DNA of 64,000 nt. It comes from Chloropicon primus (Eukaryota; Chlorophyta; Chloropicophyceae; Chloropicales; Chloropicaceae). Made by a program: the position numbers and the translations under genes. The notes beneath the pieces are model-generated. The model saw only the letters and a list, made by a program, of their open reading frames with translations. It was not told the origin of the DNA and searched no databases. The DNA is taken from NCBI GenBank assembly GCA_023205875.1, contig CP060762.1, positions 186,001 through 250,000 on the forward strand. The letters are read 5' to 3'. Each line of letters opens with the position of its first letter. The stretch's first letter is position 1. Of the stretch, positions 3,235 through 60,549 are shown piece after piece.

Positions 3235-3269
3235 CTTTCGATCGATACCAGCCTTGCTTTGTCTCGGGG
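3235..3269 (+). promoter_or_regulatory. CTTTCGA upstream element
   Basis: CTTTCGATCGATACC lies about 110-125 bp before the eIF4B-like start codon in the same orientation. The second half of the element is weak in this copy. Confidence 0.45.
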
Positions 3270-3361
3270 GCGTCCTCGCTCTCGAACCAAAGCGCATTTG
3301 TTTTGATTGGTTTCTTGAGCAAGGAGATTGGAAGGAAGCTCTGTAGTTTGCATTGAGGAGG

Positions 3362-4582
3362 ATGTGGGCAGACGACGACGATCACGACGAGCCGAGGGCG
3401 CAGGGTCCCCCCGTGTCTCGCTTCGGTAACGCCTCGGACGACGTTTACAAGACCGCGCCGGTGTACACGCAGCAGTCCCCGTCGAGGAGGGACAACAGGA
3501 GGGGAGAGAGGGAGGAGAGGAGGGGTGGAGGAGGAGGAGGAGGTGGTGGCGGCGGTGGTGGTGGCGGTGGCGGTGGCGGTGGAGGGTACAGGGACAACTT
3601 CTCGTCCAGCTTCTCGTCCAACTTCTCGTCCAACCGAGGAGGTGGCAGGGGGTACCAGCAAGACGAGCAGCGCCCCGTTCCGGAGAGGCCGCCCTTCACC
3701 GCTTTCGTGGGGAACATACCGTACGAGTTGCAGGACAAGGACGTGGAGGACCTCTTCGCGTCCTGCGGTGCGATCCAGGAGGTGAGGATCAGCCGCTGGA
3801 GAGACAGCGACAGGGCGAAGGGCGTGTTCGTGCAGTTCGAGGAGAAGGAGTCCCTCGTCAAGGCCTTGGAGAAGAACGGAGAGATGTACGAGGGCAGGCC
3901 CCTTCGACTTTCCGTGGCCGCGGAGAGGAGCAGAGACTTTGAGCGCGGAAGGGACAGGAGCTGGTCCGGAGGCACCGTGGGCATGAACAAGGGGTACGGG
4001 AAGGCCCACTACAACGAGAGGAGGGGGGACAGCTACAGGAGCAGCCACAGCCACCAGGACAAGCCGCCGCCGGCCTCTTTCGCCGAGGCCGACGCGGCGT
4101 CCCTGGCCTCCAGGCCAAAGCTCAACCTCAAGCCGAGGAGCGTCCCCGTCGGCGGGAGCAAGCCGTCGGCCGGCGGCGGCTCTAGCAGCATCTTCGGGTC
4201 GGCCAGGCCGGTCGACAGCTCCAAGAAGCTCGAGGAGGTCGAGAACAAGATCAGCCAGGAGAAGGAGAAGATCAAGCAGGAGGTGGAGGCCTCCACGACT
4301 GCGGCCAACGCTGGTGAGGGCGCCGCGAAGGGAGGAAGAGACAGCACCGCCCAGATGGGAGGCGGGTTCAAGAGGACTTACAACGCCGCGAAGGAAAAGA
4401 AGGACGGGTTCGAGAACTTCTCCAGGTCGGGTCCCAAGTCCAACGCGAGCGCCGCCGCGTCGGACGGCTTTGTGCAGCCAAAGCACGTGCAGAGGTCCGC
4501 CAAGGAGGAGGAGGCCAAGGAGGAGGCCAAGGTCGAGAAATCCGTCAATGCCTTCGACTTGCTCAACATGGACGACGAGTGA
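3362..4582 (+). CDS. eIF4B-like translation initiation factor
   Basis: A 406-residue protein. After an acidic start (MWADDDDHDEP) comes a long glycine run and an RGG-like stretch (about 58-95). One RRM follows at about 113-190, with FTAFVGNIPYEL as RNP2 and AKGVFVQFEEKESL as RNP1. A disordered tail contains RPKLNLKPRS and SSIFGSARPVD, the repeat-like signature of eIF4B. eIF4B stimulates the eIF4A helicase on mRNA 5' ends. The first ATG in frame is 3362; the frame extends upstream only via a TTG. The glycine-rich run is coded by a GGN repeat and may vary in length. Confidence 0.82.
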   Translation: MWADDDDHDEPRAQGPPVSRFGNASDDVYKTAPVYTQQSPSRRDNRRGEREERRGGGGGGGGGGGGGGGGGGGGGYRDNFSSSFSSNFSSNRGGGRGYQQDEQRPVPERPPFTAFVGNIPYELQDKDVEDLFASCGAIQEVRISRWRDSDRAKGVFVQFEEKESLVKALEKNGEMYEGRPLRLSVAAERSRDFERGRDRSWSGGTVGMNKGYGKAHYNERRGDSYRSSHSHQDKPPPASFAEADAASLASRPKLNLKPRSVPVGGSKPSAGGGSSSIFGSARPVDSSKKLEEVENKISQEKEKIKQEVEASTTAANAGEGAAKGGRDSTAQMGGGFKRTYNAAKEKKDGFENFSRSGPKSNASAAASDGFVQPKHVQRSAKEEEAKEEAKVEKSVNAFDLLNMDDE

Positions 4583-5290
4583 AGCGGGGCGAAGCGAAGC
4601 GTGCGTCCTGTTCTAAGGAAACTATTATGAGACTTCAGCAGCACCACACACAAACACAGCGAGAGGGTGTGTGTGCGCCAATTTTTAAAGCTATAATCAC
4701 ATCATCCCACGGGAGACAACCAATCAAACGGACGAACGAACGAACGAACGACGGCCTCCACATGACTGAATTGTCGGTCCTTCCCTCTCCCTCTCCCTTC
4801 ACATTTTGCCTTCTGATCTGATTGATCCAACAAGGCAAGATAGAGAGTCAGAGATACAGCCGGTCGGGTGTGCTGGATCGCACCCTCTCCCCTTGCCCTT
4901 CACCCCCCCACACCAACAAGTCCTTGCTCCTGATGAGGATGGCTCCATCCTGTCCATCAGAAAAGAGAGAAACAGTGTGTAAGTGCATGAGAGAGAGAGA
5001 GAGAGAGAGAAACAGTCGAGTCGGGTGGTGCCCTGTCCTCCTCCTCCCCCTGCCTGCGCTGCATTGCCATTCATTCTTCCAAAAGTCCATCAACCTTGAG
5101 GATTCCTCATTCAACCTTGGGAGCTCCTCAACGCATCGCCATCCAAAATGCAAAAGTGACAAGACAACGCAGTAGTAGTAGCGGATCTCGGGCAAAGGCG
5201 CGACGGCGACGGACTTTGCAGAGGGCTACGTTCGAGGAAGAGCGCGAGAGGGTTACGAGGTTCGAATTACGACGAAGCTTGTCTCGCGAG

Positions 5291-5326
5291 CTTTCGATTG
5301 ATACCTTGGTTGGATAGGTTTGGTCC
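5291..5326 (+). promoter_or_regulatory. CTTTCGA upstream element, first of two
   Basis: CTTTCGATTGATACC is followed by TTGGTTGGATAGGTTTGG, about 200 bp before the phosphatase start codon. Confidence 0.5.
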
Positions 5327-5451
5327 AGGAAGAAGCCTGGCTCGCGACGACAAGACGGCAGTGGGGGTGGCGACGCTCTGCGGAAGGGGAAGAGGTCGAG
5401 GGGAAGAGGTCGAGGGGAGGCAGCTCCTCGCCGGGCAGAGCATCGCGCAAG

Positions 5452-5497
5452 CTTTCGATTGGTCTAATCGAACATTCTCGGTTGGATAGGTTTGGTC
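5452..5497 (+). promoter_or_regulatory. CTTTCGA upstream element, second of two
   Basis: CTTTCGATTGGTC, then CGGTTGGATAGGTTTGG, ends about 22 bp before the ATG at 5520. The second half is nearly the same as that of the copy at 5291, so this looks like a local duplication. Confidence 0.5.
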
Positions 5498-5519
5498 TCG
5501 ATACAAGGTTTGGGTTGGG

Positions 5520-6551: not shown

Positions 6552-6692
6552 CCAAGATCGGATGGGTCCGAACGTTTGCGGTGCTTTCTTTTCTTTCCTT
6601 TTGGCACGCACTCGTTTCGTTCGTCTTGGTTTGGGGATGCGATTTTTTTATATTTTGGTAACCACCCTAAACTACTGGTAACAAAAAAACGT

Positions 6693-8477: not shown

Positions 8478-8702
8478 GAGCTGCGCGCGATTGATTGGTT
8501 GCTTCGGAGGGACCGGCGAGCGGCGATGACGAAGGAGTGAGCGGAGGAGGTCCAGACAGAAGGCTGCGTCATCTCGAGAGCTTTCCATCGCTGGGTCGGT
8601 AGAAGGATTTGACCCACGGAGTGGTCGAGGGTGTCGAATTGGAGCGACGCAGTTGCCACCGAGGCAACAACTGAGGGGCACGAAGGGGGGAAGCAGAGGG
8701 GG
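8478..8702. repeat. 225-bp duplicated divergent-promoter block, copy 1
   Basis: This block reappears at 10508-10732, exactly 2,030 bp away in the same orientation. I count two differences, at 8601/10631 and 8656/10686. Both copies lie between a minus-strand gene on the left and a plus-strand gene on the right. The flanking genes are unrelated. Confidence 0.9.
8581..8615 (+). promoter_or_regulatory. CTTTCGA-like element inside duplicated block, copy 1
   Basis: CTTTCCATCGCTGGG, then GGTAGAAGGATTTGACC, is a variant of the bipartite element. It is about 230 bp before the start codon at 8844. Confidence 0.4.
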
Positions 8703-8757
8703 TAGAGGTTTGGGAGGAGTTCAGGAGGTTCGATTGCGAGGACGTACATCTCGAGGT

Positions 8758-8787
8758 CTTTCGATTGATTGGTCGTTTGCTCGGTGC
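8758..8787 (+). promoter_or_regulatory. CTTTCGA upstream element
   Basis: CTTTCGATTGATTGG lies about 70-85 bp before the ATG at 8844 in the same orientation. Confidence 0.45.
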
Positions 8788-8843
8788 TGTGACCCGAGTC
8801 TCGGTTGAGGTTGGAGTGAAGCAGGGGAGGAGCAAGCAGTGGG

Positions 8844-10246: not shown

Positions 10247-10325
10247 CCTCTCCCCCTCTCTCCTCCTCGGCCGTCTCTCCTCCTCCTCCTCGGCCTGTCT
10301 CTCCTCCTTCCCTTCCTCACCACTG

Positions 10326-10359
10326 GCTCGCTCCCTTCGAGTGAGGGCTCGTTCGAAAG
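10326..10359 (-). promoter_or_regulatory. CTTTCGA upstream element, minus strand
   Basis: On the minus strand CTTTCGAACGAGCCCTCAC, then TCGAAGGGAGCG, ends about 80 bp before the CIR_N gene start at 10246. Confidence 0.5.
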
Positions 10360-10507
10360 AGCAGGACAAGACGATCAAGACAATCAAGACGATCCTGTCC
10401 CTCCCACCCGCTTCCTCCCCTTCCTCCGCTCCAGCCGCGCGATGTCCTCGTCGTCCCTCCTCTCTCTCTCTCTCTCTCTCTCTCAAGCTCTGCAGACTCG
10501 AAGGAAG

Positions 10508-10732
10508 GAGCTGCGCGCGATTGATTGGTTGCTTCGGAGGGACCGGCGAGCGGCGATGACGAAGGAGTGAGCGGAGGAGGTCCAGACAGAAGGCTGCGTC
10601 ATCTCGAGAGCTTTCCATCGCTGGGTCGGTGGAAGGATTTGACCCACGGAGTGGTCGAGGGTGTCGAATTGGAGCGACGCAGTTGTCACCGAGGCAACAA
10701 CTGAGGGGCACGAAGGGGGGAAGCAGAGGGGG
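10508..10732. repeat. 225-bp duplicated divergent-promoter block, copy 2
   Basis: Second copy of the block at 8478-8702, same orientation. It ends 10 bp before the ATG of the next plus-strand gene (10743), whereas copy 1 ends 141 bp before its plus-strand gene. Confidence 0.9.
10611..10645 (+). promoter_or_regulatory. CTTTCGA-like element inside duplicated block, copy 2
   Basis: CTTTCCATCGCTGGG, then GGTGGAAGGATTTGACC, about 100 bp before the ATG at 10743. Confidence 0.4.
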
Positions 10733-15052: not shown

Positions 15053-15404
15053 CTTTAGGGCAGAGCAAGCAAGCTGTATAAGCAAAATGTAGCTACAAAT
15101 GTCACCACTCTTCAGTGTCTTTGCCCTGACAAGTCTTTCCTCCTCAACATCATCCTTGCCCCGACACGAGACCGCCGCGTACGTTACAAAGCAAGGAAGC
15201 GGAATTCAACTCAATTCATTTCTTGACCCATCGAAAGCAGTGGAGAGCAAGCAAGAGTCCCTCCTTGTATCACAGTTTCTCTGGCCCCTTCCTTTCTTTC
15301 CCCTCTTGCCCTTGTCCATCATCCCTCCATCCTCCTGGTTCGCCAGGAGTCCCCTCCTGAGGATTTGGGGATGAGATCGAGAAGTTTGAAAATAAAAAAC
15401 GTGT

Positions 15405-15563
15405 GGAGGTTAACGCTCGGGCACGTCGCACGAGAGGGAAGGGAAGGTGTTTTTGTCGAGGACTTTGTGCACGGACGGGGACGGCGAAGGGGAGGAGGTG
15501 TTGAAAGAACGGAAGCGCTTCTCAAGGGCTTTCGATTGATACCTCGGCTGAAGGTTTTTGGCG
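15405..15563. repeat. Dispersed repeat R1, copy at 15.4 kb
   Basis: The sequence from GTTAACGC through TTGTCGAGGACTTTGTGC, ACGGACGGGGACGGCGAAGG and GTTGAAAGAACGGAAGCGC to a CTTTCGA element matches 25162-25328 almost base for base. A more diverged copy is at 34930-35060. Confidence 0.8.
15529..15562 (+). promoter_or_regulatory. CTTTCGA element at end of R1 repeat
   Basis: CTTTCGATTGATACCTCGG, then CTGAAGGTTTTTGGC, about 320 bp before the start at 15878. Confidence 0.5.
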
Positions 15564-15705
15564 CACGGAGTCCAAGGGCGAAGGGGAAAGAAACGAACGG
15601 TCGAGAGGAGAAGAACCACGATCGTTCGTTCGTGGCGAGGGAGAAAGAAAGAGGAAGGTGGAGGAAGGGCGCGAAGTCGTACTGTTCGAAAGAACATCCC
15701 AAGGG

Positions 15706-15739
15706 CTTTCGATCGATACCTCGGCTGAAGGTTTTGACA
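15706..15739 (+). promoter_or_regulatory. CTTTCGA upstream element
   Basis: CTTTCGATCGATACCTCGG, then CTGAAGGTTTTGAC, about 140-170 bp before the ATG at 15878. A second, palindromic TTCGAAAGAA lies just upstream at about 15685. Confidence 0.5.
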
Positions 15740-15877
15740 AAAAGAGTGGTCCCTCGCGCTCCTTTGAGGTTAGAGGATCTCAGAAGTTTGTTTGTGAGCT
15801 CGGTTCGTGAAGAGGAAGAGGAGGGAAGTCTTTGAGGACCCCTGCTGGAGCAGTGCAGTGTTTGTGTTTGTGTGGCG

Positions 15878-16768
15878 ATGAGGCGTCCCACGAGACAAAG
15901 TGGCAGAATACGCACCAGGTCGACGACGGGGACGACAGCGGCGACGGCCGCCGACGCCGGCGGTGGTGGTGCTGACAAGGGAGGGTTACCCCCAGGTGTC
16001 ATGGCGATGGACATGGACGCAGAGTGTTTGCAGAGCTTCGTGACGGGTTCTACCACCACCACCGAAGAGGAGCGTGGCAGTGAGGAGGATATTGGTGGTG
16101 CGGGTTCGTCCTTGCAACCTGAGTCAGAGTCAGCGCAGGTGCTGATGACTATGATGAGAGACAACGCACGTCCTACCAAGACCCCCAAGAGAAAGAGTAG
16201 GCTTCGTGATATCGTCCATCGCGTTCTTCAAGATGCGGGAAGGAGTTTACGACCCAAAGAGATCCTTCGCCGGATCCAGGCCAAGAAGTTGTTTGTGTTC
16301 AAGAAGAGAGATGGCTCTGTTTCTACTGATGATGAGGCAATGCGCGCCACTGTCAGCGGTGCTTGTAGACATAGCCCCTGCATTGTTCGCACTGCGTACG
16401 GAATATATGCCGTTGCCAAGGAATCCTTGAATGGGTCCAATGCTCAAGATGTGAAAGCACCCTCACCGCTTCGGGATGCCATCTATCGCGTTCTTCAAGA
16501 TGCGGGAGGGAGCTTGCGCACCCAAGACATCTTTGCCCGTATCAAGGCCAAGAAGTTACATGTGTTCAGGCGTCGGGATGGTTCTGTTTCTACTGATATC
16601 AAGAAAATGCGAGCCAGTGTCACCGTTACTTGTTCAAAGTGCCCCCGCGTTGTTCGCATTGAACGCGGACTATATGCCATTTCCAAGGAATACTTGAATG
16701 GGTCCACCGCTGACAAGCTGAGTGAGGAGGATTCTAACGACAACAGCAACAGCTCGATCGAATCTTGA
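15878..16768 (+). CDS. Twin HARE-HTH-like winged-helix protein
   Basis: A 296-residue protein. After a disordered, basic start, two domains of about 75 residues lie in tandem (about 107-187 and 196-275). Each reads LRDxxxRVLQDAGxSLRxxxI, AKKLxVFxxRDGSVSTD, then VRxxxGxYAxxKExLNGS. This pattern fits the HARE-HTH/winged-helix fold, which binds DNA and links chromatin proteins (HB1, ASXL) to DNA. The assignment rests on pattern only. The two DNA copies (offset 267 bp) are still very similar, so the duplication looks recent. The ATG at 15878 is the first in frame. A TGTAA signal is at 16907-16911. Confidence 0.55.
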   Translation: MRRPTRQSGRIRTRSTTGTTAATAADAGGGGADKGGLPPGVMAMDMDAECLQSFVTGSTTTTEEERGSEEDIGGAGSSLQPESESAQVLMTMMRDNARPTKTPKRKSRLRDIVHRVLQDAGRSLRPKEILRRIQAKKLFVFKKRDGSVSTDDEAMRATVSGACRHSPCIVRTAYGIYAVAKESLNGSNAQDVKAPSPLRDAIYRVLQDAGGSLRTQDIFARIKAKKLHVFRRRDGSVSTDIKKMRASVTVTCSKCPRVVRIERGLYAISKEYLNGSTADKLSEEDSNDNSNSSIES

Positions 16769-19044: not shown

Positions 19045-19187
19045 TGACAACGTGGAGAGGCGGCGATCAGAAATATCTCAAGGCGAAGGCGAAGAGAGCG
19101 AGAGAGGTGAGTTCGTGCGTTGTTGGAGGGAGGGGACGAGGGAGGGGAGGAGGAGGAATGGCACAGGGGCGATCCTCGTGTTTTTAT

Positions 19188-19222
19188 CTTTCGAACGACC
19201 CCTCCATGGAAAGAAATGGTGG
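19188..19222 (+). promoter_or_regulatory. CTTTCGA upstream element
   Basis: CTTTCGAACGACCCCTCC, then ATGGAAAGAAATGGTGG, about 310 bp before the MFP2 start codon. Confidence 0.5.
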
Positions 19223-19368
19223 GGATTTGTGCATGGACTGACACCTTGTCGTGACGTTGCCTTAGGTGGTTCGAGCCCCAGTACGAGGTGAGTATGGCGA
19301 CGGAGGGTAGGCGCGGAGGGAGGAGGGAGGAGAAGGGTGGTGGTGGTTTGGATGCTTCGCTCCTCGAT

Positions 19369-19402
19369 CTTTCGAAAGAGCCTCGCTCGAAGGGAATGGC
19401 GG
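19369..19402 (+). promoter_or_regulatory. CTTTCGA upstream element
   Basis: CTTTCGAAAGAGCCTCGC, then TCGAAGGGAATGGCGG, about 130 bp before the MFP2 start codon. Confidence 0.5.
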
Positions 19403-23133: not shown

Positions 23134-23168
23134 AAGTCATTTCCCTCAAGAGATGGGTCGTTCGAAAG
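23134..23168 (-). promoter_or_regulatory. CTTTCGA upstream element, minus strand
   Basis: On the minus strand CTTTCGAACGACCCATCTC, then TTGAGGGAAATGACTTGG. It ends about 60 bp before the MTFP1 ATG. Confidence 0.55.
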
Positions 23169-23391
23169 ATGTCGACCAGAACCTTCGGCTTGCGTGGTCC
23201 CCTTCACCCCTTGACGTCCTCCGCGAACGCACTTACCTCTTGAATTGCGCTCCTCCGCCCACTCCTGCACGCCGCCAAGATGGGTTTTGTGGTAGGAAAA
23301 TGCCGAAGATCATCCAGCAGCAGAAAGAATGCTATCGCTTGGCCTGGACCTTTGCAATTGGAGGAGGCAATGGCGGCCGAAAAGGGATCAT

Positions 23392-25090: not shown

Positions 25091-25128
<38 letters not shown>

Positions 25129-25161
25129 GGATTTCCTCGCGCGAAACCCTAAAGGAGTTGA

Positions 25162-25375
25162 AAACGTTAACGCCCGGGTTCGTCGCGCAACAAGGGAGAG
25201 GGAAGGTGTGTTGTCGAGGACTTTGTGCACGGACGGGGACGGGGACGGCGAAGGGGAGGAGGTGTTGAAAGAACGGAAGCGCTTCTCAAGGGTTTTCGAT
25301 TGATACCTCGGCTGAAGGTTTTGGCAAGAAGGAGAGTGGTCCTTCTTTTGAGACGACAGGCGTTAGAGGAGGCGA
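25162..25375. repeat. Dispersed repeat R1, copy at 25.2 kb
   Basis: Matches 15405-15563 nearly base for base up to its CTTTCGA-like element. It then continues with sequence like 15733-15773 (GAGTGGTCC...GTTAGAGGA). Its element points away from any plus-strand gene; the only gene with its 5' end nearby is CAMKMT on the other strand. Confidence 0.8.
25293..25326 (+). promoter_or_regulatory. CTTTCGA-like element, orphan
   Basis: TTTTCGATTGATACCTCGG, then CTGAAGGTTTTGGC, inside R1. There is no plus-strand gene downstream, so this copy may be non-functional or may belong to an unseen transcript. Confidence 0.4.
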
Positions 25376-28361: not shown

Positions 28362-28848
28362 GGTCAAGGGGCGAGACTCCTCCTGTCCCGTCGATTATCA
28401 TAACAATGCACATAGATATAATATAGATATAATATATATATAATAAGACCTTTTGCAGGAGTACATCCTTTGCTTTGCATCGCGATGCTTCACACCTCGG
28501 TTCCTGCCAAAGCAGGTGAGGCTGAGAGAAACAGAGAGAGGCAAAGAGAGAGAGAGGATGCCAAGGTTGAAGCACGACTCGGGTGAAGGCCTCTTCACTT
28601 CAATCACCATCCCCACCACCATCCAGGATCTCTTCATCATGATCTCTTGATTTCCAAGGAGAGCATCCAGGAGGAGGGCAGGGCAGGGCGAGGAGAACAG
28701 GTTGTTTTGCTGCTGTTGCTGTTGTTGGTCGGTGGTCTTCGGAGCGAGAGCGATTGGAGGGGAGGAGAAGGGAGGGTTAAGTTGCAGCCTGATTCAAGGC
28801 ACACCCGCCTCAAGGGCTTTCGTTTGATACCGCAACTGTTCGGTCGGC
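28362..28848. other. Intergenic before KXD1
   Basis: A 487-bp spacer. It begins with an AT-rich tract (ATAGATATAATATATATA, about 28410-28446), then GA-rich sequence, and ends with a CTTTCGA element just before KXD1. No gene is seen. Confidence 0.45.
28817..28848 (+). promoter_or_regulatory. CTTTCGA upstream element
   Basis: CTTTCGTTTGATACCGC, then a degenerate second half; it directly abuts the KXD1 ATG at 28849. It is the closest copy to a start codon. Confidence 0.4.
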
Positions 28849-29617
28849 ATGAGCAGCGAAGAAGGGGAAGGTGTTGGTGTTGATGTGGAAGAGACTTCTG
28901 CTCCTGGTGTGGTGGAGGAGGGGGAGGGAGCGGCGGGGGCTCAAGGGGGGCCCGTGATCGACAAGCTGGAGAACTTGGTCCTCGAGGAGGGACGGGAGGA
29001 GGGCGCGAGAGGGGATGACGAGGAGGAGGAGGGGACCTCCGACAGACAGGACACTGAAGCGAGCAGCCAGAGTGCGCACGGCTTCCACTTGGACAGTCCA
29101 GCGTCGGTAACAGGCGGGCAGGGAGGGGGGGATCGACGAGCAATCGAGGTGAATGATGGCTTGAGCCTCGCGGGCGTGGTTCGGCAAGTCGCCACATTGG
29201 TTCCCGGGGAGGCCACGCAAAGCATCTTGAGGCTCCAACAGAATATGTAAGCCACCCACACTGACTCGGGGATGTGCTCCCGATGCTTCGGTCGATTTTG
29301 AACTTGGAAACTAACAGGCGCCCGCCATCTGCTCCCTTTTTCTTCTTCTTCTTTATTCGTGGTCATCATCGTCGGATAGTTTGAACAACTTGAAGTCCAC
29401 GAACAAAGCTGTGACCGACTTCAACATCTTTTCCGAGGAGAAGTACTCGAGCATCTCGCCAGACCTCACGAAGCTTGCGAAGAACCTGAAGAGTATCAAA
29501 ACCGATTTAGATTACATATACAAGAAGACGCATTCGATCAAAGTCAAGCTGAAAGGGAAGTACCCCGAAGCCTTCGTCCCGCGGGCAGACCCCGAGCAAC
29601 AGGAAGTAAATGAATGA
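28849..29617 (+). CDS. KXD1: KxDL motif-containing protein 1 (BORC subunit)
   Basis: Two exons: 28849-29246 and 29380-29617 (GTAAGC donor, GATAG acceptor), 211 residues. The first 110 residues are an acidic, disordered extension. The conserved coiled coil spans the splice: SILRLQQNI joined to LNNLKSTNKAVTDFN, then LKSIKTDLDYIYKKTHSIK and KLKGKYPEAFV. KTDL is the KxDL motif. KXD1 is a subunit of BORC/BLOC-related complexes that position lysosomes and endosomes. The junction codon (AT plus T) gives Ile where animals have Met or Leu. The stop is 77 bp from the convergent neighbour. Confidence 0.85.
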
Positions 29618-31872: not shown

Positions 31873-33107
31873 ATTGATACTATTGATATAGTAGTGAGAC
31901 CAATATCAATATCAATATCAATCAAACAATCGATCGATCGATCGAACGAACGATCCAAAAAAAAAATATCCCAAAGGGATGGCGAATCGAATCGAATCTA
32001 ATGAAGCAACCAAGCAACGAACGAACGAACGAACGAGAGAGAGAGAGAGAGAGCAAACTCAAAAACGAATGGTTTTGTTTGGTTTGGTTTGTCTCCTCCC
32101 TCCCCGTTCGAACGGCAAGCCTGGGCCAAAAAAAAAAAGGCGAGAGGAGGGGAGAGTCTCCGCCTGCCTCGCCTGTCCGTCCCCGTCTCGCCCTGCGGAC
32201 AAAGACGACGACCTCGTTGTCCTGTCGTGTCACTAAGACCTCCCCTAGGGTCCACCTCCCAGCATGAACCCCTCCCACCTCACCGCGAGGAGGTCGCCTT
32301 TCGCTTCGGGTCCCCACGCGGGCCAAAATGCGCGAATGAGGGGTCTTTCGAAAGATCACGAGACGAAGAATCGAATGGTCGCGACCTCCTCGTCTCTCGC
32401 GGACTCGCTCGCGCTGCGATCGCTCCCCAAAGGCGCTCTCTCCCCAAAGGCGCGCTCCTCTCGACTCGATGGCGCGCGAAAGGTGTCGTCGCCGTAATTT
32501 AACGTGTGTTTTCTATTCCAAAAATATCTCCATTAGCACGGTGTTTTCTATTCTATTCTCTCATGGAAATATCATACAACATTTCCAAAAGTACATTCTA
32601 ATTTCAAATTTCAAGTGGCGTGTGCAATGGCGTAAAGGGTCTGTTTCTGACCCAGAAAGACCTTGGATGGAGGGGACGGCGACCAGCGTTGGACCAGGGC
32701 ACGAGTTTTGGATCAGCTCAAACGGAAGCTAAGCTTCACCTCGGTGGTTGTATCTCTCAACTTTCTCTCAAAGGTTGAAAGAAAACTCGCCTTTGGGCTG
32801 CGGGTGTCCTCCGCCTTGGCGTGTTAAACGGAATTGGGTTTGGTGCTGGTGCCTTGGCCATTGCAAAGCCAGGGGTACTCGTTGGTCACTGCGTTGTTTG
32901 GAGCGGGGAATCTGCGTTGGGATCGAGCGGAATCGCGTCCGGTGCTTTCTTCTCCTTCCCGAGAAGCGAGTTCTTCTCCTCTCCGGAAGAAGAGAAGTCC
33001 AGTGCCTTGAGGAGTGGGGGACGAGGCCAAAGATTGCTGTCGCCCGTCCACTGATTTGGTTGGTTGGTTGGTTGGTTGGCATTGCTTGATTGATCATCCC
33101 TCGCGCG
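31873..33107. other. Divergent promoter region, EPL / EHD
   Basis: A 1,235-bp spacer. From the left: an ATATCA repeat (about 31896-31925), CGAT and CGAA repeats (31930-31950, 32016-32036), GA run, a CTTTCGA element (32345), a short CCCCAAAGGCGC tandem (about 32427-32455), an AT-rich tract (32500-32620) and a GGTT repeat (33057-33078). No gene is seen. Confidence 0.5.
32345..32378 (+). promoter_or_regulatory. CTTTCGA palindromic element
   Basis: TCTTTCGAAAGATC is a perfect palindrome core. The second half is weak. It lies 760 bp before EHD and 470 bp before the EPL start. Confidence 0.35.
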
Positions 33108-36784: not shown

Positions 36785-36818
36785 CGACGTTTCTTCCACG
36801 CGACGGCTCGTTCGAAAG
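36785..36818 (-). promoter_or_regulatory. CTTTCGA upstream element, minus strand
   Basis: On the minus strand CTTTCGAACGAGCCGTCGC, then GTGGAAGAAACG. It points at the 52-residue gene. Confidence 0.5.
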
Positions 36819-36999
36819 AGCAAGAGGTGAAGCCCCCGCCTGTTGTGTCCTCCGCCTCCCCTTTCCTCCGCAACGCCGCGCTCCAGTCCTCGTGCCTCGC
36901 CCTCGTGCTCGTCCGTTATGATGGCAGCGGAAGGGAGAATCCACCAAAGAGAAAGAACGATGATCTGTCCCCTCCAAGGTGAGAGGGAGGGTTGAGGAC

Positions 37000-37744: not shown

Positions 37745-40700
37745 CTATGATATGTTGGGCTCGGGTCTGGCGTGTGCGTGCGTTCTGACTTTGTTTCTCG
37801 TTGCTGCTCAGCTCTTGTTCGTGATGGGGGGTGTCCACCCCAATCTGTTGATCTTGAACAACGGGACAGGCGATGTGTGGCATGCCCCGCGATACTTGGA
37901 GGCGGCTGAATCTGGCGAGGAGCAGCTCACGTTGGCTCGGCCATGGAATGCTTGGCCCGCTCAAGATTCTCGTGCCGCTGTAGCCGGGGACTTCAACGGC
38001 GACGGAAGGGTGGATATTTTCATCGCAAACAGCAACGAGAAGAATCAAATATACTGGGGCAACGGATGGGAAGGGCCTTCGAACGATGTGCCATCTTTCG
38101 TGGTCACGGGCGACACCAACGTGGACAATGGCGGAGACGTGATGTTCTTCTCGAAGGACTCGCGTGCAGTCGTGACTGGGGACTTCGACGGGGATGGAGA
38201 CCTTGACTTGTACGTGGCAAACTTCAAACAAACCAACGAGCTTCTCTTGAACGATGGATCTGGGAACTTCGTGAGAGCGTTACAAGACGAGTCGACATCC
38301 GATCTGACCTGGGGTGTGGGAGTTGTCGCAGCAGATTTTGACGGCGATGGAAACCTGGACCTGTACGAGGTTTGCGACGTGCCGTTCATGGCTGGCGGGA
38401 ATCCAGAAGACGCGAGGAATAGACTGTACATGGGCCAGGGCGATGGTAGTTTTGTTCGCGCAGACCCGGGGAACGACGCAGAGGCCAGAACAGACAACTC
38501 GTGTGGGGTCGTCGCGGGCGACTTTAACGGGGATGGGTGAGTTTGCTGCGAACGTGAGAAGACAGTAGAAACTTTTTTGGTCACTGACAAGTCGTCGTCG
38601 TCGTCGTCGTTCTATCTCTTCACTCTTTTGCGATTGCAATAACAGGCTGGTCGATATTTTCGTAGCGAGTTGCCTCGAAACACAGTATAACGAGTTGCTT
38701 ATCAACACTGGATCGGGCAGCTTCAGTTCTGCTGATGGCATGGACGCAACGAGGAAGAAGTCTTCAAAACAAGTCAATTCGATCGCCGCCTGCGATTTGG
38801 ATTCAGATGGGGACTTAGACTTGTGGATCGGGGGCCATCCGTCCATGGTGTTGCTGAACGATGGCACAGCAAAGTTCTATGAGGTTTCCGAAGGAAATCT
38901 CTCAACTGTGATAGGAGCTGGTGCCTCGTGCTTTGATGCAACAGGCGACGGAAAGAACGATTTGTTTGTGAACACAAGGTCATCAATTGGCAAGGCGGAG
39001 TTTTTGAAGAGCAGGGCGCGCTATCAATTTGAGGAGTCGGAAGCAGGAGCACTGTCAAGATCCCGTGAGGGCACCAAACATGTCGAAGTGGTCGATGTCG
39101 ACGACGATGGAGATCTGGTAAGTTTTGACACCTTTTTTTTTGGAGCGACCACAAATACGTAGAATGCCTGATCTAACTCGCTCCTTGGCACCCACAGGAT
39201 TTGGTTGTTGTCACCCATACAAATGAGTATCCCTTACAGGTCCTCTTGAACGATGGCATCGGAAACTTCGCTTCTGCTTCAGTGACCCAGAGTGAAGGAC
39301 CCTGCGACCATGCTGCACACATAGACATGAACGGAAATGGCCAACCTGACTTGTTTATCTCGAAAAGGCAAGGAACCACCGGCCCTGTTAAGAACGCAGT
39401 CTACTTCAACAATGGCAACGATGCGGACGAAGGTCCCTTTGACCTTCTGACGGACGAAAATATAATTCAAGAGCTGCTGGACGTGCTGGAGTATCCTTCG
39501 AGATTCGCTCTTGTGGCGGACTTTAACTCGGATGGAAGGGATGATTTGTTCCTTGTGAATGATCTTGCGAACGTCCCCAATGGGCTTTTCCTGAGCGATG
39601 GAAGTCTCGGACACAACTTCGTTCGAAATTTGGACACCTCTTCGAGAGCAGGGCAATCATTGAAAGCTGTTGCGTTTGATGCCGATGCGGACGGCGATCT
39701 CGACATTTTCGTTGTCTATCGCAATGAAACCTGCGAGCTTTTGATCAATGATGGCGCAGGAAACTTTGAGGCAAGCCCTGTTGCTCTTGGCGAAGACGAA
39801 GAAGGAACATTAGTAAGATCTTGGAGTAGCGCAGTTGCTGCAGACTTCAACGGAGATGGAATAACGGATTTGTATGTCAGTGCAGAGGATTACGAGGACA
39901 CGAACGTGTTACTCCTTGGGGATGGCAGTGGAGAATACTCGGTGATATCGGACGGAGAAGCGATTACAAGTGACGCATGCCCAGGGTTAGATTACGTTGG
40001 GATTGACATCGATGGAGATGGAGATGGTACGTTCTGTTTTAGATTCACTCTTGCTTCAAATCCTCATCTTTGTTGACACTTCTCTCGTTCTTTTTCCTCC
40101 CCAAAGTGGATTTGCTAGGCGTGGACAAGGAGGATGCGAGTGCTCTCTACGTCAACGATGGGTCAGGTTCATTTACACAAGTGGATCTCGGCTTCATCAC
40201 TCACTCGGGCGAAGCGAGAGGCGTTGCTGCTGCTGATTTCGACGGCGATGGAGACATTGATCTTTTGTACTACACGAGCATGTTGAGCACTAACAAACTC
40301 TACTTGCCGTGTGGTTCAGGCTATTCGCTAACTCCAGAAGGACGGTGCATTGCGCCGTCAGTCAGGCCAGATGTCACAATCTCTCCAGCTTCTGCAGAAA
40401 CCAAGGGAGCGGCTCTGGCAGTCGTCCAGGGATATCTGGGCAGTGATCCCGAGGGTTCTGTGACCATTGGGGGAAATCTTTGCAGTGTATCAAGCTACGT
40501 CAGCCACAAGTTATGGATATGTCAGATTCCAGAGGGTGCTTCAAGCAGCGTGGAAGTCGTTGTGGAGAATTATGGCCACATTTCTCAGCCCACACACTTT
40601 GCTTATGACCCACCGAGAATTGAGTCAATTGAGCCACAGTTCTTTCAAATTGATTCACCCTTCACTGAAATGGCTTTCACAATCCGTGGATCAAACTTTG

Positions 40701-43700
40701 GAGCAAGCAGGATTGTGAATATCGGGGGTGCAGCTTGCCTTCCTTCCATTGATAGCCCTGACCACGATCCTCATGAAGTTATCTACTGTGAAGTAAGAGC
40801 AAATGGAGATGGTTGGAATTCCTCGTTCTTGTCTGCAGGACTGCTTGATGTAAGCGTAGCAGTTGAAGATCAATCTGACAACACTGGGAAAGCGTGTCAG
40901 GCAGCACAAGCTGGCAGCTTGAAGTGCTTGTGTCCAGAGGGACAAGAATACAAAGACGATGAATGTGTCAGTTGCACTGCAAACCATTATTCAGATGGCA
41001 CAATGTGTATAGCTTGCCCGCTAGGGTCTGTAATCCCTGCGAACGAGAACAGCGAGAACACAGGAGCTGACTCTGATGCCTGTGTGTGTGGCGTAAATGC
41101 TGCACTGAACACTGGTACTGGTCGCTGCGAGTGCAAAGCAGGGTATGGCGGTGATGCCACGGTGGCCAACGTTGGTTGCGGTGAGTGTGGCACTGGAGCT
41201 TACAAGGGTGACATGGGCAATACGCAATGCACCCCGTGCCCTGGAGGATCTTCCATAGTTGGCGGGGTCTCCAATTCCACTGACTCTGATGCCTGTGTGT
41301 GTGGCGTAAATGCTGCACTGAACACTGGTACTGGTCGCTGTGAGTGCAAAGCAGGGTATGGCGGTGATGCCACGGTGGCCAACATTGGTTGCAGCGCTTG
41401 TGGCACTGGAGCTTACAAGGGTTCTATGGGCAACACGCAGTGTACTTCTTGCCCATCTGGATCGTCTATTTCTGGTGGGATCACCAACTCCACTGATGCT
41501 GCATCATGTGTCTGTGGTATCAATGCAGAGCTGAACGAAGTAACTGATCGCTGCGAGTGCAGCGCAGGGTATGGTGGTGATGCAACGAATGAATTTGTTG
41601 GTTGCTATGGGTGTGGTAGTAGTCGTTATAAGAACGATGTTGGAAACACACCGTGCACGCCGTGTCCATCTGGATCCTTGATTACCGAAGGCATCACCAA
41701 TGCCACTCATGAGGATTCATGTATCTGTAACAGTCATTCTGAGCTTAAGCAGCCAGGTATATGTGTCGCTTGGATGCCCTGTGAACCTCCCGAATGTATG
41801 TGCAGTCCAGGATATAAGGGCTCTGCGTCATCTATTCATGGTTGCAGTGAATGCGGTACAGGGAGCTTCAAGTCATATGCTGCAAATGGGCCATGCACTC
41901 CTTGCCCTGCAGGATCGTCTATTTCTGGTGGGGTCACCAACGCCACTGATGCTGCATCATGCGTCTGTGGTATCAATGCGCAGATGAATGATGCCACTGG
42001 TCGTTGCGAGTGCAAAGCAGGGTATGGCGGTGACGCCACAGTGGTGAGCATCGGTTGCAGCGCTTGTGGCTCTACTGGCTACAAGGAGGAAGATGGAAAT
42101 GCACAATGCACTCCTTGTCCCATGGGTGCATTGATTACTAATGGCACCACCAATGCTACTGACTCAGAATCTTGTGTCTGCGGAGGGAATGCCGGGATAA
42201 ATGTAGTTGGTGATCGCTGCGAGTGCAAAGCAGGGTATGGCGGTGACGCCACAGTGGTGAGCATCGGTTGCAGCGCTTGTGGCTCTACTGGCTACAAGGA
42301 GGAAGATGGAAATGCACAATGCACTCCTTGTCCTATGGGCGCATTGGTTACTAATGGCACCACCAATGCTACTGACTCAGAATCTTGTGTCTGTGGCGTC
42401 AATTCAGCATTCGGCGACGAGAGTGATCGCTGCCTTTGCAAACCAGGATACGGTGGAGATGCTACGAGCATCTATGGTTGCAGCCCTTGTGGCACTGGAG
42501 CTTACAAGGGTGACATGGGCAATACGCAATGCACCCCGTGCCCTGGAGGATCTTCCATAGTTGGTGGGGTCTCCAATTCCACTGACTCTGATGCCTGTGT
42601 GTGTGGCGTAAATGCTGCACTGAACACTGGTACTGGTCGCTGCGAGTGCAAAGCAGGGTATGGCGGTGACGCCACAGTGGTGAGCATCGGTTGCAGTGCG
42701 TGCGGCATTCTTGCTCACAAAGGCACAGTCGGGAACACGCAATGCACCCCTTGTCCCGCAGGATCGTCTGTTTCTGGTGGAGTTACCAACGCCACTGATT
42801 CTAGCTCGTGTGGTTGTGGTATCAATGCAGAGCTGAACCAAGTGAGCGGTCGTTGTGAGTGCAGTGCAGGCTATGGTGGCGACGCCACGAATAGCTTAAT
42901 TGGTTGCAGTCCATGTGGCATTCTTGCTTACAAGGGTGACATGGGCAATACACAATGCACCCCGTGCCCCGGAGGATCATCTGTTTCTGGTGGAGTTACC
43001 AACGCCACTGATTCTAGCTCGTGTGGTTGTGGTATCAATGCAGAGATGAATGTTGCCACTGGTCGTTGTGAGTGCAGTGCAGGCTATGGTGGCGACGCCA
43101 CGAATAGCTTAATTGGTTGCAGTCCATGTGGCATTCTTGCTTACAAGGGTGCTAAGCGCAATGCCCAATGCACTCCTTGCCCTGCAGGATCGTCTGTTTC
43201 TGGTGGGGTCTCCAACGCCACTGATGCTGCATCATGCGTCTGTGGTATCAATGCAGAGATGAATGTTGCCACTGGTCGTTGCGAGTGCAGTGCGGGACAT
43301 GGCGGTGATGCCACGGTGGCCAACATTGGCTGCAACATCTGTGGCACCAGCGCATTCAATGGTGATGTGGGTAACGTGCAATGCACCCCATGTCCCTCTG
43401 GAAGCACGGTGCGCGACGGGGTAACAGCGACCAGCATGGAAGAATGCTTTTGTGATGTTGGAACGGTGACAATGGGTAGTGCGGATACTTCGATCTCATG
43501 CCAGTGCGCTCCTGGTTATTTTGGCTCTGCGCTTGATAACACGTGTGACTTGTGCCCTGTGGGTGGCTACAAGGACACGCCGGGAGATGCTGTAGCGTGC
43601 ATGCCGTGCACAAGCAAATTGGGAGAGGGTGCCACCACGCCGAAGCAAGGATCGCTTTCTTCCGAGGAATGCGTGTGTGGAAACGGGTATTACATGCACC

Positions 43701-45774
43701 GGGGAATGTGCATGCCTTGCGAAGTAGGGGCCTTGTGCCCTGGCGGCAACATCAGTAGCATGATCGCCCTTCCAGGGTTTTGGAGATCGGACCCTGCTTC
43801 AACTTCGTTCTTTAGCTGTGAGAGTCCCAACGGCTACACCCTCTGGTAAGTATTTCGCCACCTTTCCTCTCTTTCTAGTAGCTTATCTCCAGTCAGTCTA
43901 ACATCACCTTTGCGCCTTCTGTTCTACGCCTCAGCATGGGAGGAGCTTCCAACCACACGGGAAGCGGGGCTTCGGGACCCCTGTGCCGAGAGGGGCACGA
44001 GGGTCTCTTGTGCTCCAAATGTACGAAAGGGTATGGCAAGACTTACGGAGTTTGCGCCAAGTGCGATTCCTCCTTCAGTGCCAGCGGCATCATTTTCGTC
44101 TTGTTTGCGATCTTTGCTTTTTTCGCCTTGCTCTACGGATTAGTCTCCAACAACCTGAGGAAGGCCACTGCACATGCCAACTCAAAGGACGAAGAATCCA
44201 TTGCTCTGAGTGTGGTGAAGATCATAATCAACTGGCTGCAGATGGCATCCATAGCCGCACAGGTCCGGGTGACCTCGAACGAGAGCATGGACAGGTTTTT
44301 CCAGATCCAAGATGTCTCGAACGTCTCGCCCTTTCAGTTCAGCAGCTTCAATTGCATGGTGCAGGCGGATTATTACGCCCAATTTTACTCGGCGCTGGTC
44401 ATCCCCCCAGCTTGCGTGATCCTCGGCCTGTGCCTGACGGGGATCCACTTTTTGAAGAGGACCACCAAGAACATACGATTCGGGGACATGTTTGTGATGG
44501 TGAGCCAGATGCTCTGGTTTTTCACTTACAGCATGGTGAGCCAGATTCTTCTCGGAATCTTCGAGTGCCGCGATTTGGACCGGGGTGTGTCTGTGTTGTC
44601 CGCAGACTTGTCCGTGCAATGTGAGACCTCCAAGCACGACTCTGCCGTGAAGTTGGGGTACATTTTCGGACTGCTGTACATTGTCGGCATACCTCTGCAA
44701 GTATTTGCCCAGCTCTACTGGTATCGAGGGAACCTGGCCGATCAGTCGGTGAAAGTGAGGTACATGTTCATGTTCCACAACTACCGGGAGGGACTTTACT
44801 GGTACGAGTGCGTCAACATGCTGAGGAAGATCGGCTTGGTCACGGCTTTGGTTCTCCTTCAAGAGGATCTTGGGACCCAAGTCTTCGCCCTGAGTGTGAT
44901 TTCGATGACCTACTTGACCCTTCACGCTTACATCAAGCCGTACACTTCTCGGACGCTGAACGAGCTGGAAACCGCGGCTTTGTTCGTGACAGCCCTCACA
45001 CTCAGCACGTGCAGCTTCTTTTACTCGAATCCGACGGGAACCGGGAACCCCGTCGTGGAGCATGGGTTGACCTGGAGTGTGATCGTACTGAGCACGTGCT
45101 TGCTCATTTGCAGTCTTGCAATTCTCGGCAAGGGGGGATTGGTCGCTTTCACCCGTGGGAAGCCTGCGGGGGGGAACTCCCAGCTGCCTTCCAAAATATC
45201 CAAGGAGTACCTTAAGAGCGAAGACGCCGAGAATTGCGTTGGATCGCCATCCCAGTTCAAGTCCTTGCTTTCTCACGACGGAAATCTGTCTCATGAAGGA
45301 GATCCTGACAGTCCAGCAAGCTTGGCAACGAAGAAGGTTGTGATGGCAAACCCTCTGGCACAAAGCCAGTCTCAGAATGGGAGACTTACCCCACTGCCCT
45401 CTGCTGTCGAGAAGCATCTTCGCCGCCTGAGCGGTGCGGGTGAAGGTGAGCCACGCGGGGAGCAATATTCCTCACCTGCGGTGAGGAACCCGCTGTGTCC
45501 TGTGATTTCAGACCTCCCTGGGAAAGAGATTCACGCGCAAAATGACGAGGAGGCATCGCACTTACCAGAAAAAGTGGTTCAGAAGGTCGGGGCGACAATA
45601 ATAACGCAGACCTCCTCTGCAGACCATGAAAAGGTGGTCTCTAACGCTGGTGGAGTGGAGAATCCTTTGAGTGCGGAGCAAGCGATTGATGGACACGCAA
45701 AGGATCTCGACGGTGAGACCAGCGGCAGAAAGAGCCAAGTGGCACAGAATCCCATGATGTCGCAGCTTGTATAG
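37000..45774 (+). CDS. Giant receptor-like protein: FN3-like, FG-GAP, IPT, cysteine repeats, multi-span membrane domain
   Basis: Six exons: 37000-37695, 37812-38536, 38646-39117, 39198-40026, 40107-43845 and 43935-45774; all borders are GT-AG and all phases agree, giving 2,766 residues. A signal peptide (1-31) precedes an FN3-like region. FG-GAP/VCBS repeats (about 220-980) follow, with many DxDxDG calcium loops such as GDFNGDGRVDIF and DFDGDGDLDLY. IPT/TIG-like parts lie at about 1010-1180. About eleven 71-residue cysteine repeats (about 1190-2105) contain CTPCPxGSS and CECxAGYGGDA. The last exon codes a cysteine cap and about 8-10 membrane spans, then a 200-residue cytosolic tail. A cell-surface sensing or adhesion role is inferred. 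Confidence 0.8.
37706..37744. repeat. (ATG)n microsatellite in intron 1
   Basis: About eleven ATG units lie inside the first intron of the giant receptor gene. The resulting poly-Met and poly-His open frames are artefacts. Confidence 0.85.
41080..43440. repeat. Coding tandem array, about 213-bp units
   Basis: About eleven units of 71 codons inside exon 5 of the giant receptor. Most keep the exact length; one unit near 41.7-41.9 kb is longer and divergent. The second and eighth units (about 41187 and 42486) are nearly identical in DNA although 1.3 kb apart, as are the two adjacent units at about 42060-42420. This suggests recent duplication or gene conversion. Confidence 0.85.
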
Positions 45775-52926: not shown

Positions 52927-53100
52927 CGTGAAACCTCTTTTTGTTTTTCTTTCTCCTTCGCCGCCAAAAGCATTCCCTCGACCTGGGGACAGAGCGGAGC
53001 GGAACTCGACAGAGGAAGGGGCTCGTGGAAGCGTCCAGAGTGGCGAGGAGGGCGAACGGAGGGGAGAGGAGGGGAGACACGCGGAAGCACCGTCTCTTGC

Positions 53101-53135
53101 TCTTTCGATTGATACCTCGCTTGAAGGGATTGGCG
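53101..53135 (+). promoter_or_regulatory. CTTTCGA upstream element
   Basis: CTTTCGATTGATACCTCGC, then TTGAAGGGATTGGCGG, about 80-115 bp before the NFU start codon. This is one of the best matches to the consensus. Confidence 0.55.
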
Positions 53136-55928: not shown

Positions 55929-55962
55929 CGCCAATGTGACCTTGTGAGGGCACAATCGAAAG
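55929..55962 (-). promoter_or_regulatory. CTTTCGA upstream element, minus strand
   Basis: On the minus strand GAGCTTTCGATTGTGCCC; about 270-300 bp before the P4H start codon. The second half is not clear. Confidence 0.4.
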
Positions 55963-56477
55963 CTCGTGAGATGAAGATTCGTCTGAGAACGCTCCGGTTC
56001 CATTCAGACCATCGCCTGACGCGCCAAGCGGTCCCAAACTCCTCCCCTTTTTCGCCTCTTCACTTGGGCAAAGTGAAGTCCAAGATCTTCATCTTGGGTG
56101 TAAAAACTCATCTTGGGTGCAAACCCTCGTCCAGAGCGGCCGATGGCGTCGTCCTCGGGCCACGCTCTTTCCAAAGATGGCGCCTTTGCCCCGTTCCGCT
56201 TCGCGCCCTCGCCTCGTCGTTCTTCTCCTTCATCCAGCCTCGTGGTGTAGAGAGCACGGGAGGTTAAGTCTGAGAGGACGAGGCTACCTTGCGACCTCCT
56301 CAGGATTAAGATTAGGTGTACTCGATGATGTGCACTGCTATGCTTTTTGGCCTCCCTCGCCTCGTCCACCATCATCAGGAATGATTCATCACTCCTCCTC
56401 CTCCTCCTCCTCCTCCCCAAATTATTGTCAAGTGAAAGACACAGAGCACGGCTCTGTTGGAAAGAGAGAGAGAGAGA

Positions 56478-57036: not shown

Positions 57037-57086
57037 GGCGCTGACGGTTTGAGAGGAGAGAGAGAGAGAGGCGAGGCGAGGAGAGA

Positions 57087-58069
57087 ATGATGTGGGCACT
57101 GAGAGCGGTGGCGAGTCAGCTGACGCGTGCGCAAAGCACCGGCGTGGCGGCGACGTATTTGAGGAACGTGAGGACACTCGGTGGTGGAATGAACCCCTTT
57201 TTGAGGAGGAATTATAGTGACGAGGCTAAGGACGCGAGTGCATCGGAGGCGTCCAAGGAGGCGTTCTTGAAGAAGTGGGCGGAGGTTGCGCCCTCGACGC
57301 TCGACCCACCAAGCTTTGCATCCGAATTCGCGGCAAAGAGCGAGAAACCTGCGGACGGGGCTCCAGTACCTAGCAAGCTCACCTTCAACTTTTACCTTCC
57401 TCACGAGAAGCCATACAGGTGAGTGGAGAGTCCTCCTCCTCCTCGAATGCATGCGGAGGAGATTCATGTGCATGCATTCGCTCGAACAGAATTGCAATTC
57501 GGGATGTCCCAAACTCCTCCTCCTCCTCCTCCTCCCGTGGGCGGCGATGCAAGAAGTGCATTGTTGGCGAAAAGTTCTTCGCACCCCCCCAGTGGTCAAA
57601 GGTCTCAAACGTGTTTTTCTGACTCCTTTCCTTCCTCTCTCTCTCCCCGTGTGCGTGTATGTGTGTACGTTCTCCTCCTCCTCCTCCTCGCCCCAGTGCC
57701 GCCGAGGTCGACATGGTCCTCGTTCCAGCTGTGACGGGAGACTTTGGTGTGATGCCCGGGCACGTCCCCACGGCAGCGCAGCTCAGGCCAGGTGTTCTGA
57801 CTGTGCAGGAGGACGAGGGAACAAGCAAGAAGTTCTTTGTATCCAGCGGATTCGCTTTCGTTCACGCTGACAGCACCGCCGACGTCTGCGCCGTCGAGGC
57901 CTTCCCTGTCGAGGACTTGGATGCCGCGACCGTCGAGGCGGGACTCGCGGACTACACTGCCAAGCTGGCCAGCGCCACCTCTGGCGGGGACGATTACGAG
58001 GCCGCTGCTGCTCAGATTGGCGTAGAGGTCTACTCTGCTATGAACGCGGCGATCACGGACAGCAAGTAA
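57087..58069 (+). CDS. ATP5F1D: Mitochondrial F1Fo ATP synthase subunit delta
   Basis: Two exons: 57087-57418 and 57697-58069 (GTGAGT donor, CCCCAG acceptor), 234 residues. The N-terminal 50 residues ([15 protein letters not shown]...RRNYS) look like a mitochondrial presequence. The beta-sandwich domain (homologous to bacterial epsilon) shows [48 protein letters not shown] and [13 protein letters not shown]. The subunit is part of the central rotor stalk. The first exon includes an extra alpha-helical stretch before the conserved domain. The intron is 278 bp and rich in CTC runs. Confidence 0.93.
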
Positions 58070-58197
58070 AAACAATACGATATATTAAATCATCCAAAAT
58101 ACATTCTTATGTATGTATCCTTTTTGCCCATCGCGGTGTTGCTGGGGCACTTTCCCTCCGCGCGCAGAGAGAAAAACTTTACTTAACGTCGGCCAAC

Positions 58198-59814: not shown

Positions 59815-59948
59815 TCTCGCCGCCGCTCTGGTCACTCCACGACGCCCTCTCTCTATCCCTCTCCTCTCCCTCTCACCCGCCTGGCCTCGAACCTCCCTGC
59901 TGCTTCAAACCCAATGGAATGGAATGGAATGGTCCGCAACAACCAATG

Positions 59949-59982
59949 CCTCAAACACGGCAAGCGACCCGTCGATTGAAAG
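59949..59982 (-). promoter_or_regulatory. CTTTCGA-like element, minus strand
   Basis: On the minus strand CTTTCAATCGACGGGTCGC, then TTGCCGTGTTTGAGG; 135-170 bp before the E2 start codon. Confidence 0.4.
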
Positions 59983-60137
59983 ATCTCGAGACAAGATTTA
60001 ACTTGACGCGACTCTCTTCCCCTTCCCGTTCGGTTCCCGTTCCCACCTTGGCCCGTATTGCGTCTACCTCTTCGTCTAGCGGACCTTCCTCTGCAAACCA
60101 ATTTCCTCTCTCTCCCGTCAAAGGATTCGAACCCCGG

Positions 60138-60171
60138 CACCAAATGTTTCAACCAAGAGCTCTTTCGAAAG
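60138..60171 (-). promoter_or_regulatory. CTTTCGA upstream element, minus strand
   Basis: On the minus strand CTTTCGAAAGAGCTC, then TTGGTTGAAACATTTGGTG; about 325 bp before the E2 start codon. Confidence 0.5.
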
Positions 60172-60514
60172 ATCTTGACAAAAGCTTTCTTTCTATTCAA
60201 ACCCTTACCACTTCCTGCGCACCTTTAGTGACTCAAACCACCGTCGAAAGTCACTCACTCCCCTTCGCACAGAACCGCGAGCCGTCGACTGGTGCTGACG
60301 ACGCAAACACCGTGGCACCTTTTTGAAATGTACGAGTATTACTCTTACATTTGAAATGCAAAGGAGGGAGGAGGAGAGAGGATCAGATTGGATAAGGGGA
60401 CGGCTTCTTCGGGAAACCAATAAGGTGAAAGGGTAAGTTTTGTGACGAGGTGTGCGACTGTAGGGGAAGGGAAAGGGTTGTGGAGAGGTTTAGAAAATAT
60501 TGTGAGGTTGTGAT

Positions 60515-60549
60515 CTTTCGAATGACCCCTTGGTTGAAAGATTTGGTGG
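60515..60549 (+). promoter_or_regulatory. CTTTCGA upstream element
   Basis: CTTTCGAATGACCCC, then TTGGTTGAAAGATTTGGTGG; about 490 bp before the next plus-strand start codon, a distance that a 5' UTR intron would explain. Confidence 0.5.

Follow-up and report, generated by a model that had tools for sequence, protein, structure and literature searches.

A 64,000-nucleotide stretch of the Chloropicon primus genome (contig CP060762.1, positions 186,001 to 250,000 of the forward strand, C9:186001-250000; hereafter, the window) carries repeated copies of an element of approximately 52 bp, with a core beginning CTTTCGA, ahead of genes for an RRM protein, an MFP2-type enzyme, NFU and others. An original prediction made from the window alone had listed 21 copies of a two-part element, and the core is present at all 21 of these places, beginning at the given coordinate or no more than one base from it. 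CTTTCGA is exact in 16 of them and has one mismatch in five (8581, 10611, 25293, 28817 and 59982; copies are named by the position at which the core begins). The coordinates hold, except that 53101 is properly 53102. The copy at 32345 had been assigned to the wrong strand: its core is palindromic, and the matrix described below finds it at 32354 on the minus strand with a score of 51.6. Three listed copies (5452, 28817 and 19369) are weak or contain insertions or deletions, and are absent from the 18 window sites scoring above 20. The second half, given as TTGAAGGnWTTGG, exists with a looser sequence than that. The copies and their associated motifs are as follows, in window coordinates, with matrix scores and domain matches in brackets.

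3217-3268, plus strand: copy before the RRM protein gene (38.5; RRM_1)
5273-5324, plus strand: first copy of a pair ahead of an NIF-type phosphatase gene (43.8; NIF)
5434-5485, plus strand: degenerate second copy with an insertion, 161 bp past 5291 (best local score -7.5)
8563-8614, plus strand: first copy of a tandem pair (33.2)
8740-8791, plus strand: second copy of this pair, 177 bp further (32.2)
10315-10320, minus strand: donor-like GTGAGG at +39 of copy 10359
10326-10377, minus strand: copy 10359, divergent to 10611 and within a called coding core (41.8)
10593-10644, plus strand: copy 10611, with flanks almost the same as those of 8581 (32.9)
15511-15562, plus strand: copy upstream of a paralogous-family gene, first of a pair (48.7)
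15688-15739, plus strand: second copy of the paralogous-family pair, 177 bp further (47.6)
19107-19112, plus strand: donor-like GTGAGT at -81 of the first MFP2-type copy
19170-19221, plus strand: first copy before an enoyl-CoA hydratase/3-hydroxyacyl-CoA dehydrogenase (MFP2-type) gene (43.4; ECH_1, 3HCDH)
19288-19293, plus strand: donor-like GTGAGT at -81 of the second MFP2-type copy
19351-19402, plus strand: second MFP2-type copy, 181 bp further, with a spacer 1 bp shorter (15.6)
23135-23186, minus strand: copy before an MTP18/MTFP1 gene (46.5; MTP18)
25275-25326, plus strand: copy in a paralogous-family upstream region, facing the next called gene from its 3′ side (43.3)
28799-28850, plus strand: weak copy with an ATG at +32 in frame with a weakly coding open reading frame (18.4)
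32321-32372, minus strand: copy listed earlier as plus 32345 (51.6 on the minus strand)
36785-36836, minus strand: copy with donor-like GTGAGG at +39 (36779-36774), facing a called 3′ end (39.4)
53084-53135, plus strand: best-scoring 52-bp copy, before a NifU/NFU gene (61.8; NifU domain)
55929-55980, minus strand: copy before a 2OG-Fe(II) oxygenase gene (41.0; Pfam)
59949-60000, minus strand: second copy before a 2-oxoacid dehydrogenase E2 gene, 189 bp beyond the first (32.9)
60138-60189, minus strand: first E2-gene copy, divergent to 60515 (48.1; 2-oxoacid_dh)
60433-60438, plus strand: donor-like GTAAGT at -82 of copy 60515
60497-60548, plus strand: first of two copies ahead of an NAD(P)-binding protein gene (45.1; NAD_binding_10)
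60683-60734, plus strand: weak second copy before the same gene, 186 bp further, with donor-like GTAAG at -81 (13.5)

The element recurs throughout the genome, which was searched as 17,584,162 bases in 20 contigs and, as befits an alga, has 17 matches to the chlorophyll a/b-binding family. The strict core CTTTCGAWNGAYMCC has 190 matches (107 + 83) and the longer two-part pattern 56, and neither pattern is matched when reversed; viral contigs scanned with the two-part pattern gave no match. The density of the strict core is approximately tenfold higher in the window (8 per 64 kb) than in the genome (190 per 17.58 Mb). Conserved sequence reaches 18 bp 5′ of the core, giving the overall length of approximately 52 bp. 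The 44 sequences behind the 52-column matrix comprise 12 further loci and one representative of each of the 35 flank clusters described below, minus three (L003, C1+64741 and C1-143322). In 264 kb of unselected DNA, consisting of the window and C1:900001-1100000, this matrix finds 34 matches above a score of 12 and 36 above 10; three first-order Markov randomizations yielded 0.0 and 1.0 on average, respectively. Conservation of the core columns arises partly by construction, as loci beyond the 264 kb were picked by their core; the flanking columns are free of this effect. The dyad symmetry of the matrix is weak (best correlation 0.37), and a helical 10-bp periodicity suspected by eye was not significant (permutation p of 0.10-0.25 for periods 9-11).

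Placement relative to genes follows orientation and avoids coding DNA. Gene calling relied on a basic hexamer score, for which long reading frames served as the training set, so that start codons are approximate. Among the 30 matches scoring above 25 with a 46-column matrix, 25 lie in sense orientation 5′ of a same-strand gene, three lie in sense orientation within called coding sequence and two face a 3′ end, which bears out the predicted orientation and 5′ position. With the 52-column matrix, called coding sequence holds only 2 of the 27 matches above 20 while covering 67% and 79% of the two unselected stretches. The downstream proteins that were scanned differ in function, in agreement with the proposal that functionally unrelated genes share the element. 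Copy number follows leader length: where the start codon lies less than 200 bp past the first copy, a second copy occurs in none of 24 genes, compared with 11 of 22 genes with longer leaders (p = 5 × 10^-5). A second copy in a short leader would land in coding sequence, and the element therefore seems to be barred from coding DNA and added where the leader allows.

The original prediction had overlooked both the regular spacing of tandem copies and the existence of divergent pairs. Genome-wide, same-strand repeats of CTTTCGAWNGA number 121 at 162-192 bp, 12 at 193-223 bp and 3 at 131-161 bp, in totals that count palindromic cores on both strands; reversed controls gave none. Among the pairs listed, with palindromes merged and six satellite-like rows set aside, spacing averages 180.4 bp (standard deviation 4.9, n = 77). 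In the loci examined, 13 same-strand neighbours that score above 11 and are less than 600 bp apart fall at 177-193 bp, and one, in a pair that includes a low-complexity match, at 402 bp. A second match above 10 is found 180 ± 15 bp from the most upstream copy in 12 of 49 cases, with only isolated matches at other offsets. A further 13 matches fall at 346-376 bp; some of them come from triples or longer arrays, and one is an artefact of the palindrome in the 60171 core. The genome-wide coordinates show that copies do occur in arrays of at least three. The tandem copies would thus lie about one nucleosome repeat apart. Recent duplication is not the cause of this spacing in most pairs, since in 11 of the 14 tandem pairs compared the upstream flanks resemble each other no more than do flanks of unrelated genes; duplication is clear in two pairs (L004 and L024) and possible in a third (L015). 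Separately, C16:318341-319369 holds six successive CTTTCGAWNGA pairs 169-170 bp apart, a satellite-like array that is more regular than the leader pairs.

Opposite-strand neighbours within 600 bp form 12 pairs in the loci examined, all of them divergent and 205-346 bp apart; the pair at 205 bp and one at 280 bp have a weak partner. In the one range scanned genome-wide, 241-271 bp, divergent arrangements give 21 matches at 16 distinct places and convergent arrangements none.

The sequence around the element suggests where transcription begins. We analysed 60 copies that score above 25 and do not belong to the paralogous gene family; 51 of these are the most upstream copy of their gene. From approximately -130 to -25 of the element, the sense strand is rich in G, and GC skew, negative further upstream, rises to about +0.3 to +0.6 near -130 to -140, both in copies with (19) and in copies without (32) a divergent partner. 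For the 51 first copies, ATG frequency is 4.0-8.5 per kb from -500 to -130 and then 2.0, 1.3 and 2.6 per kb in three bins from -130 to -40, whereas for the five permuted forms of the ATG triplet the mean count drops only from 15.8 to 12-14 per bin over the same span. Measured from the start codon, the skew and ATG onsets lie approximately 100 bp upstream in 70 element-free genes and approximately 250-300 bp upstream in 18 element genes. These onsets suggest a transcription start approximately 100-130 bp upstream of the element, which would then probably lie downstream of the start.

Splice-donor-like sequences stand at fixed distances from the element. GTRAGT occurs at -80 to -87 in 11 of the 51 first copies and in none from -62 to +38, and no instance of its complement lies between -120 and +209. 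The motif recurs at -81 to -83 of the second copy in 19188, 60515 and L024, and GGTRAG is found at +39 or +40 in 6 of the 51. Downstream, CTGA[AC] accompanies 6 of the 14 copies with an upstream donor-like motif, compared with 3 of 37 without (p = 0.008). Because of the motif at -80 to -87 and the skew and ATG onset at about -130, the element appears to lie inside the transcribed leader, often in a first intron, and not upstream of or at the start site, as the core promoter reading of the original prediction would have it.

Comparison of flanks shows that the copies do not make up one transposon family, a possibility the prediction had left to be checked. The 62 rows compared, representing 61 places (C1+125715 is L002), fall into 35 clusters. 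The largest cluster, of 18 rows, consists of the upstream regions of one paralogous gene family, to which 15529, 15706 and 25293 belong, and some clusters of two to four rows merely reflect overlapping windows of neighbouring copies. A transposon or short interspersed nuclear element family was rejected, as the flanks are unrelated beyond this gene family and a few duplications. A structured RNA or RNA polymerase III gene was likewise rejected: folding z-scores for five copies (0.05, -0.35, 0.14, -0.10 and -1.02) indicate no stable fold, and the window has no tRNA and no Rfam match to the element, the Rfam scan of the window returning 5S rRNA only. That 5S rRNA gene lies at window 538-656 on the minus strand (101.3 bits).

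The upstream regions of the paralogous family occur at window 15285-16768 and 25128-25372, and also at L009, L012, L019, L021 and other loci, with tandem internal repeats of approximately 270 bp downstream; the family's open reading frame at window 15872-16768 has no Pfam match. Elsewhere in the window, neighbouring open reading frames at 40070-45774 carry ephrin-receptor-like/FG-GAP and TRP-like domains.

Our preferred reading, to which we give a probability of about 0.45, is that many C. primus genes carry, within the transcribed 5′ leader, a strand-specific, nucleosome-phased DNA element of approximately 52 bp that resembles intron-mediated enhancement (IME) with a different motif. The element would sit approximately 100-130 bp downstream of the start predicted from skew and ATG content, often within the first intron, and leaders of sufficient length could hold a second copy, rarely a third or fourth, one nucleosome repeat further on. 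It would act in the manner of IME, with a nucleosome-scale spacing rule in addition to its other motif. Several observations weigh against this reading. Half of the long-leader genes (11 of 22) have no second copy. The ATG frequency is back at 4.5 per kb between -40 and -18, and copies without a divergent partner are also ATG-poor at -220 to -180, which makes the onset less clean. The other three of the four acceptor or branch patterns are equally frequent with and without the upstream donor-like motif. Downstream composition in 41 sequences shows no 180-bp period in any of ten features (z at 180 bp of -1.1 to 1.3), and the largest periodicity scores belong to GG at 200-210 bp (2.9 and 2.7) and to C at 230 bp (2.6). 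Finally, the closest strong divergent pairs are approximately 243 bp apart, too short for two full 147-bp nucleosomes between them, and the simplest geometry, in which the element occupies the linker after the +1 nucleosome, therefore fails there. This leaves two options: the element lies on or near a nucleosome and not in a linker, or each of the closest divergent pairs has a single nucleosome or an open region in common.

Other explanations account for parts of the same evidence. Transcription could begin at or near the element, making it a start-site core promoter element whose tandem copies are alternative promoters one nucleosome apart; a TCT-like or initiator (Inr)-like CTTTC start with downstream contacts would serve this purpose. 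Sense orientation and 5′ position are as expected for such an element, and the divergent pairs at approximately 243-346 bp resemble divergent promoters with a common open region. The shortest distances from the element to an in-frame ATG, approximately 32-36 bp (28817; C1 159365), would also have its 3′ part transcribed. We nevertheless consider a start at the element unlikely, as GTRAGT at -80 to -87 in 11 of 51 copies and the ATG and skew onset at approximately -130 suggest a start further upstream. If the element does lie in the leader, it could instead exert its effect through the RNA: as a sequence of the leader or first intron, it would guide splicing, export or translation of the transcript. 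Its strand specificity and its predicted place within the leader fit this, as do the donor-like motifs upstream (11 of 51) or at +39/+40 (6 of 51) and the commoner CTGA[AC] downstream of copies with the upstream motif (6 of 14 versus 3 of 37). An RNA-level role is nonetheless improbable: the five folded copies give no signal (z of 0.14 to -1.02), many copies have no donor-like motif, and the spacing of approximately 180 bp is kept in pairs that do not have the motif at -80 to -87 (for example 8581/8758, L004, L008 and L023). A mobile origin, with the copies left over from a short mobile element, introner-like or otherwise, that inserts beside nucleosomes in 5′ leaders, seems to us very improbable. 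Introners of other algae prefer nucleosome linkers (PMC9860276), and the tandem units in L024 and L004 appear duplicated; yet the common sequence extends over only about 52 bp, the flanks form 35 clusters of which one is a gene family, coding sequence is avoided (2 of 27), and no shared unit has the splice-like sites at its ends.

A leader element that is phased by nucleosomes may also be taken further. On this broader and more doubtful proposal, the element would represent a new class of eukaryotic promoter signal, long, strand-specific, active only inside the transcribed leader and present once per nucleosome. The first nucleosomes and the upstream start would both be positioned by a factor that binds to every copy, which would amount to a natural, chromatin-based form of IME in green algae. 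If true, a natural element with a nucleosome-scale spacing rule would tie an IME-type effect to chromatin. The 17.6-Mb genome of this alga is small enough for genome-wide tests, and the element might find use as a compact leader module in algal expression constructs.

A literature search covering part of the relevant papers returned no description of this element, and several known systems resemble it in part. Among core promoter elements (Inr, the motif ten element (MTE), the downstream promoter element (DPE) and TCT), DPE has contacts that are likewise downstream and strand-specific, and among the yeast barrier factors Reb1 and Abf1, Reb1 likewise phases nucleosomes sequence-specifically. 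The motifs of all of these are shorter than the C. primus element and fixed at or upstream of the start, and we know of none whose sense-strand copies recur one nucleosome repeat apart, whereas the C. primus element shows sense-strand repeats at nucleosome-scale spacing.

Introners of Micromonas and Aureococcus are intron-making elements tied to nucleosome linkers, as described in a report whose main text does not mention Chloropicon (PMC9860276). They form families of similar elements inserted in genes, whereas the C. primus copies share only a 52-bp core, in leaders, with no likeness over whole introns (35 flank clusters among 62 rows) and with coding sequence avoided (2 of 27 matches). In some prasinophytes, N6-methyladenine (6mA) and 5-methylcytosine (5mC) lie between the first nucleosomes downstream of starts; the main text of that report does not mention Chloropicon either (PMC12695648). 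This likeness, a nucleosome-periodic signal downstream of the start, makes a nucleosome-phased signal plausible in such algae. The prasinophyte marks differ in being base modifications, and the portion of the report available here describes no 50-bp motif with them (PMC12695648). As a separate observation, bearing on possible DNMT5-type linker methylation, the sole C5 DNA methylase domain match in our genome search lies at C1:613202-614275.

The nearest functional parallel may be the IME motif TTNGATYTG of Arabidopsis, which is active in introns and exons alike, provided that it lies in transcribed DNA close to the 5′ end, has an effect that rises with copy number and belongs to introns often found in constitutive genes (PMC6760150). 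The two are not the same motif: allowing up to two mismatches, TTNGATYTG is found in 24 of 51 elements versus 19 and 21 of 51 nearby windows, and is not enriched. The C. primus element would share with IME its place in the transcribed 5′ leader, on the sense strand. It differs in having a different and far longer motif and in its nucleosome-scale spacing, a feature that the abstract and Discussion of the IME report leave unmentioned for TTNGATYTG (PMC6760150).

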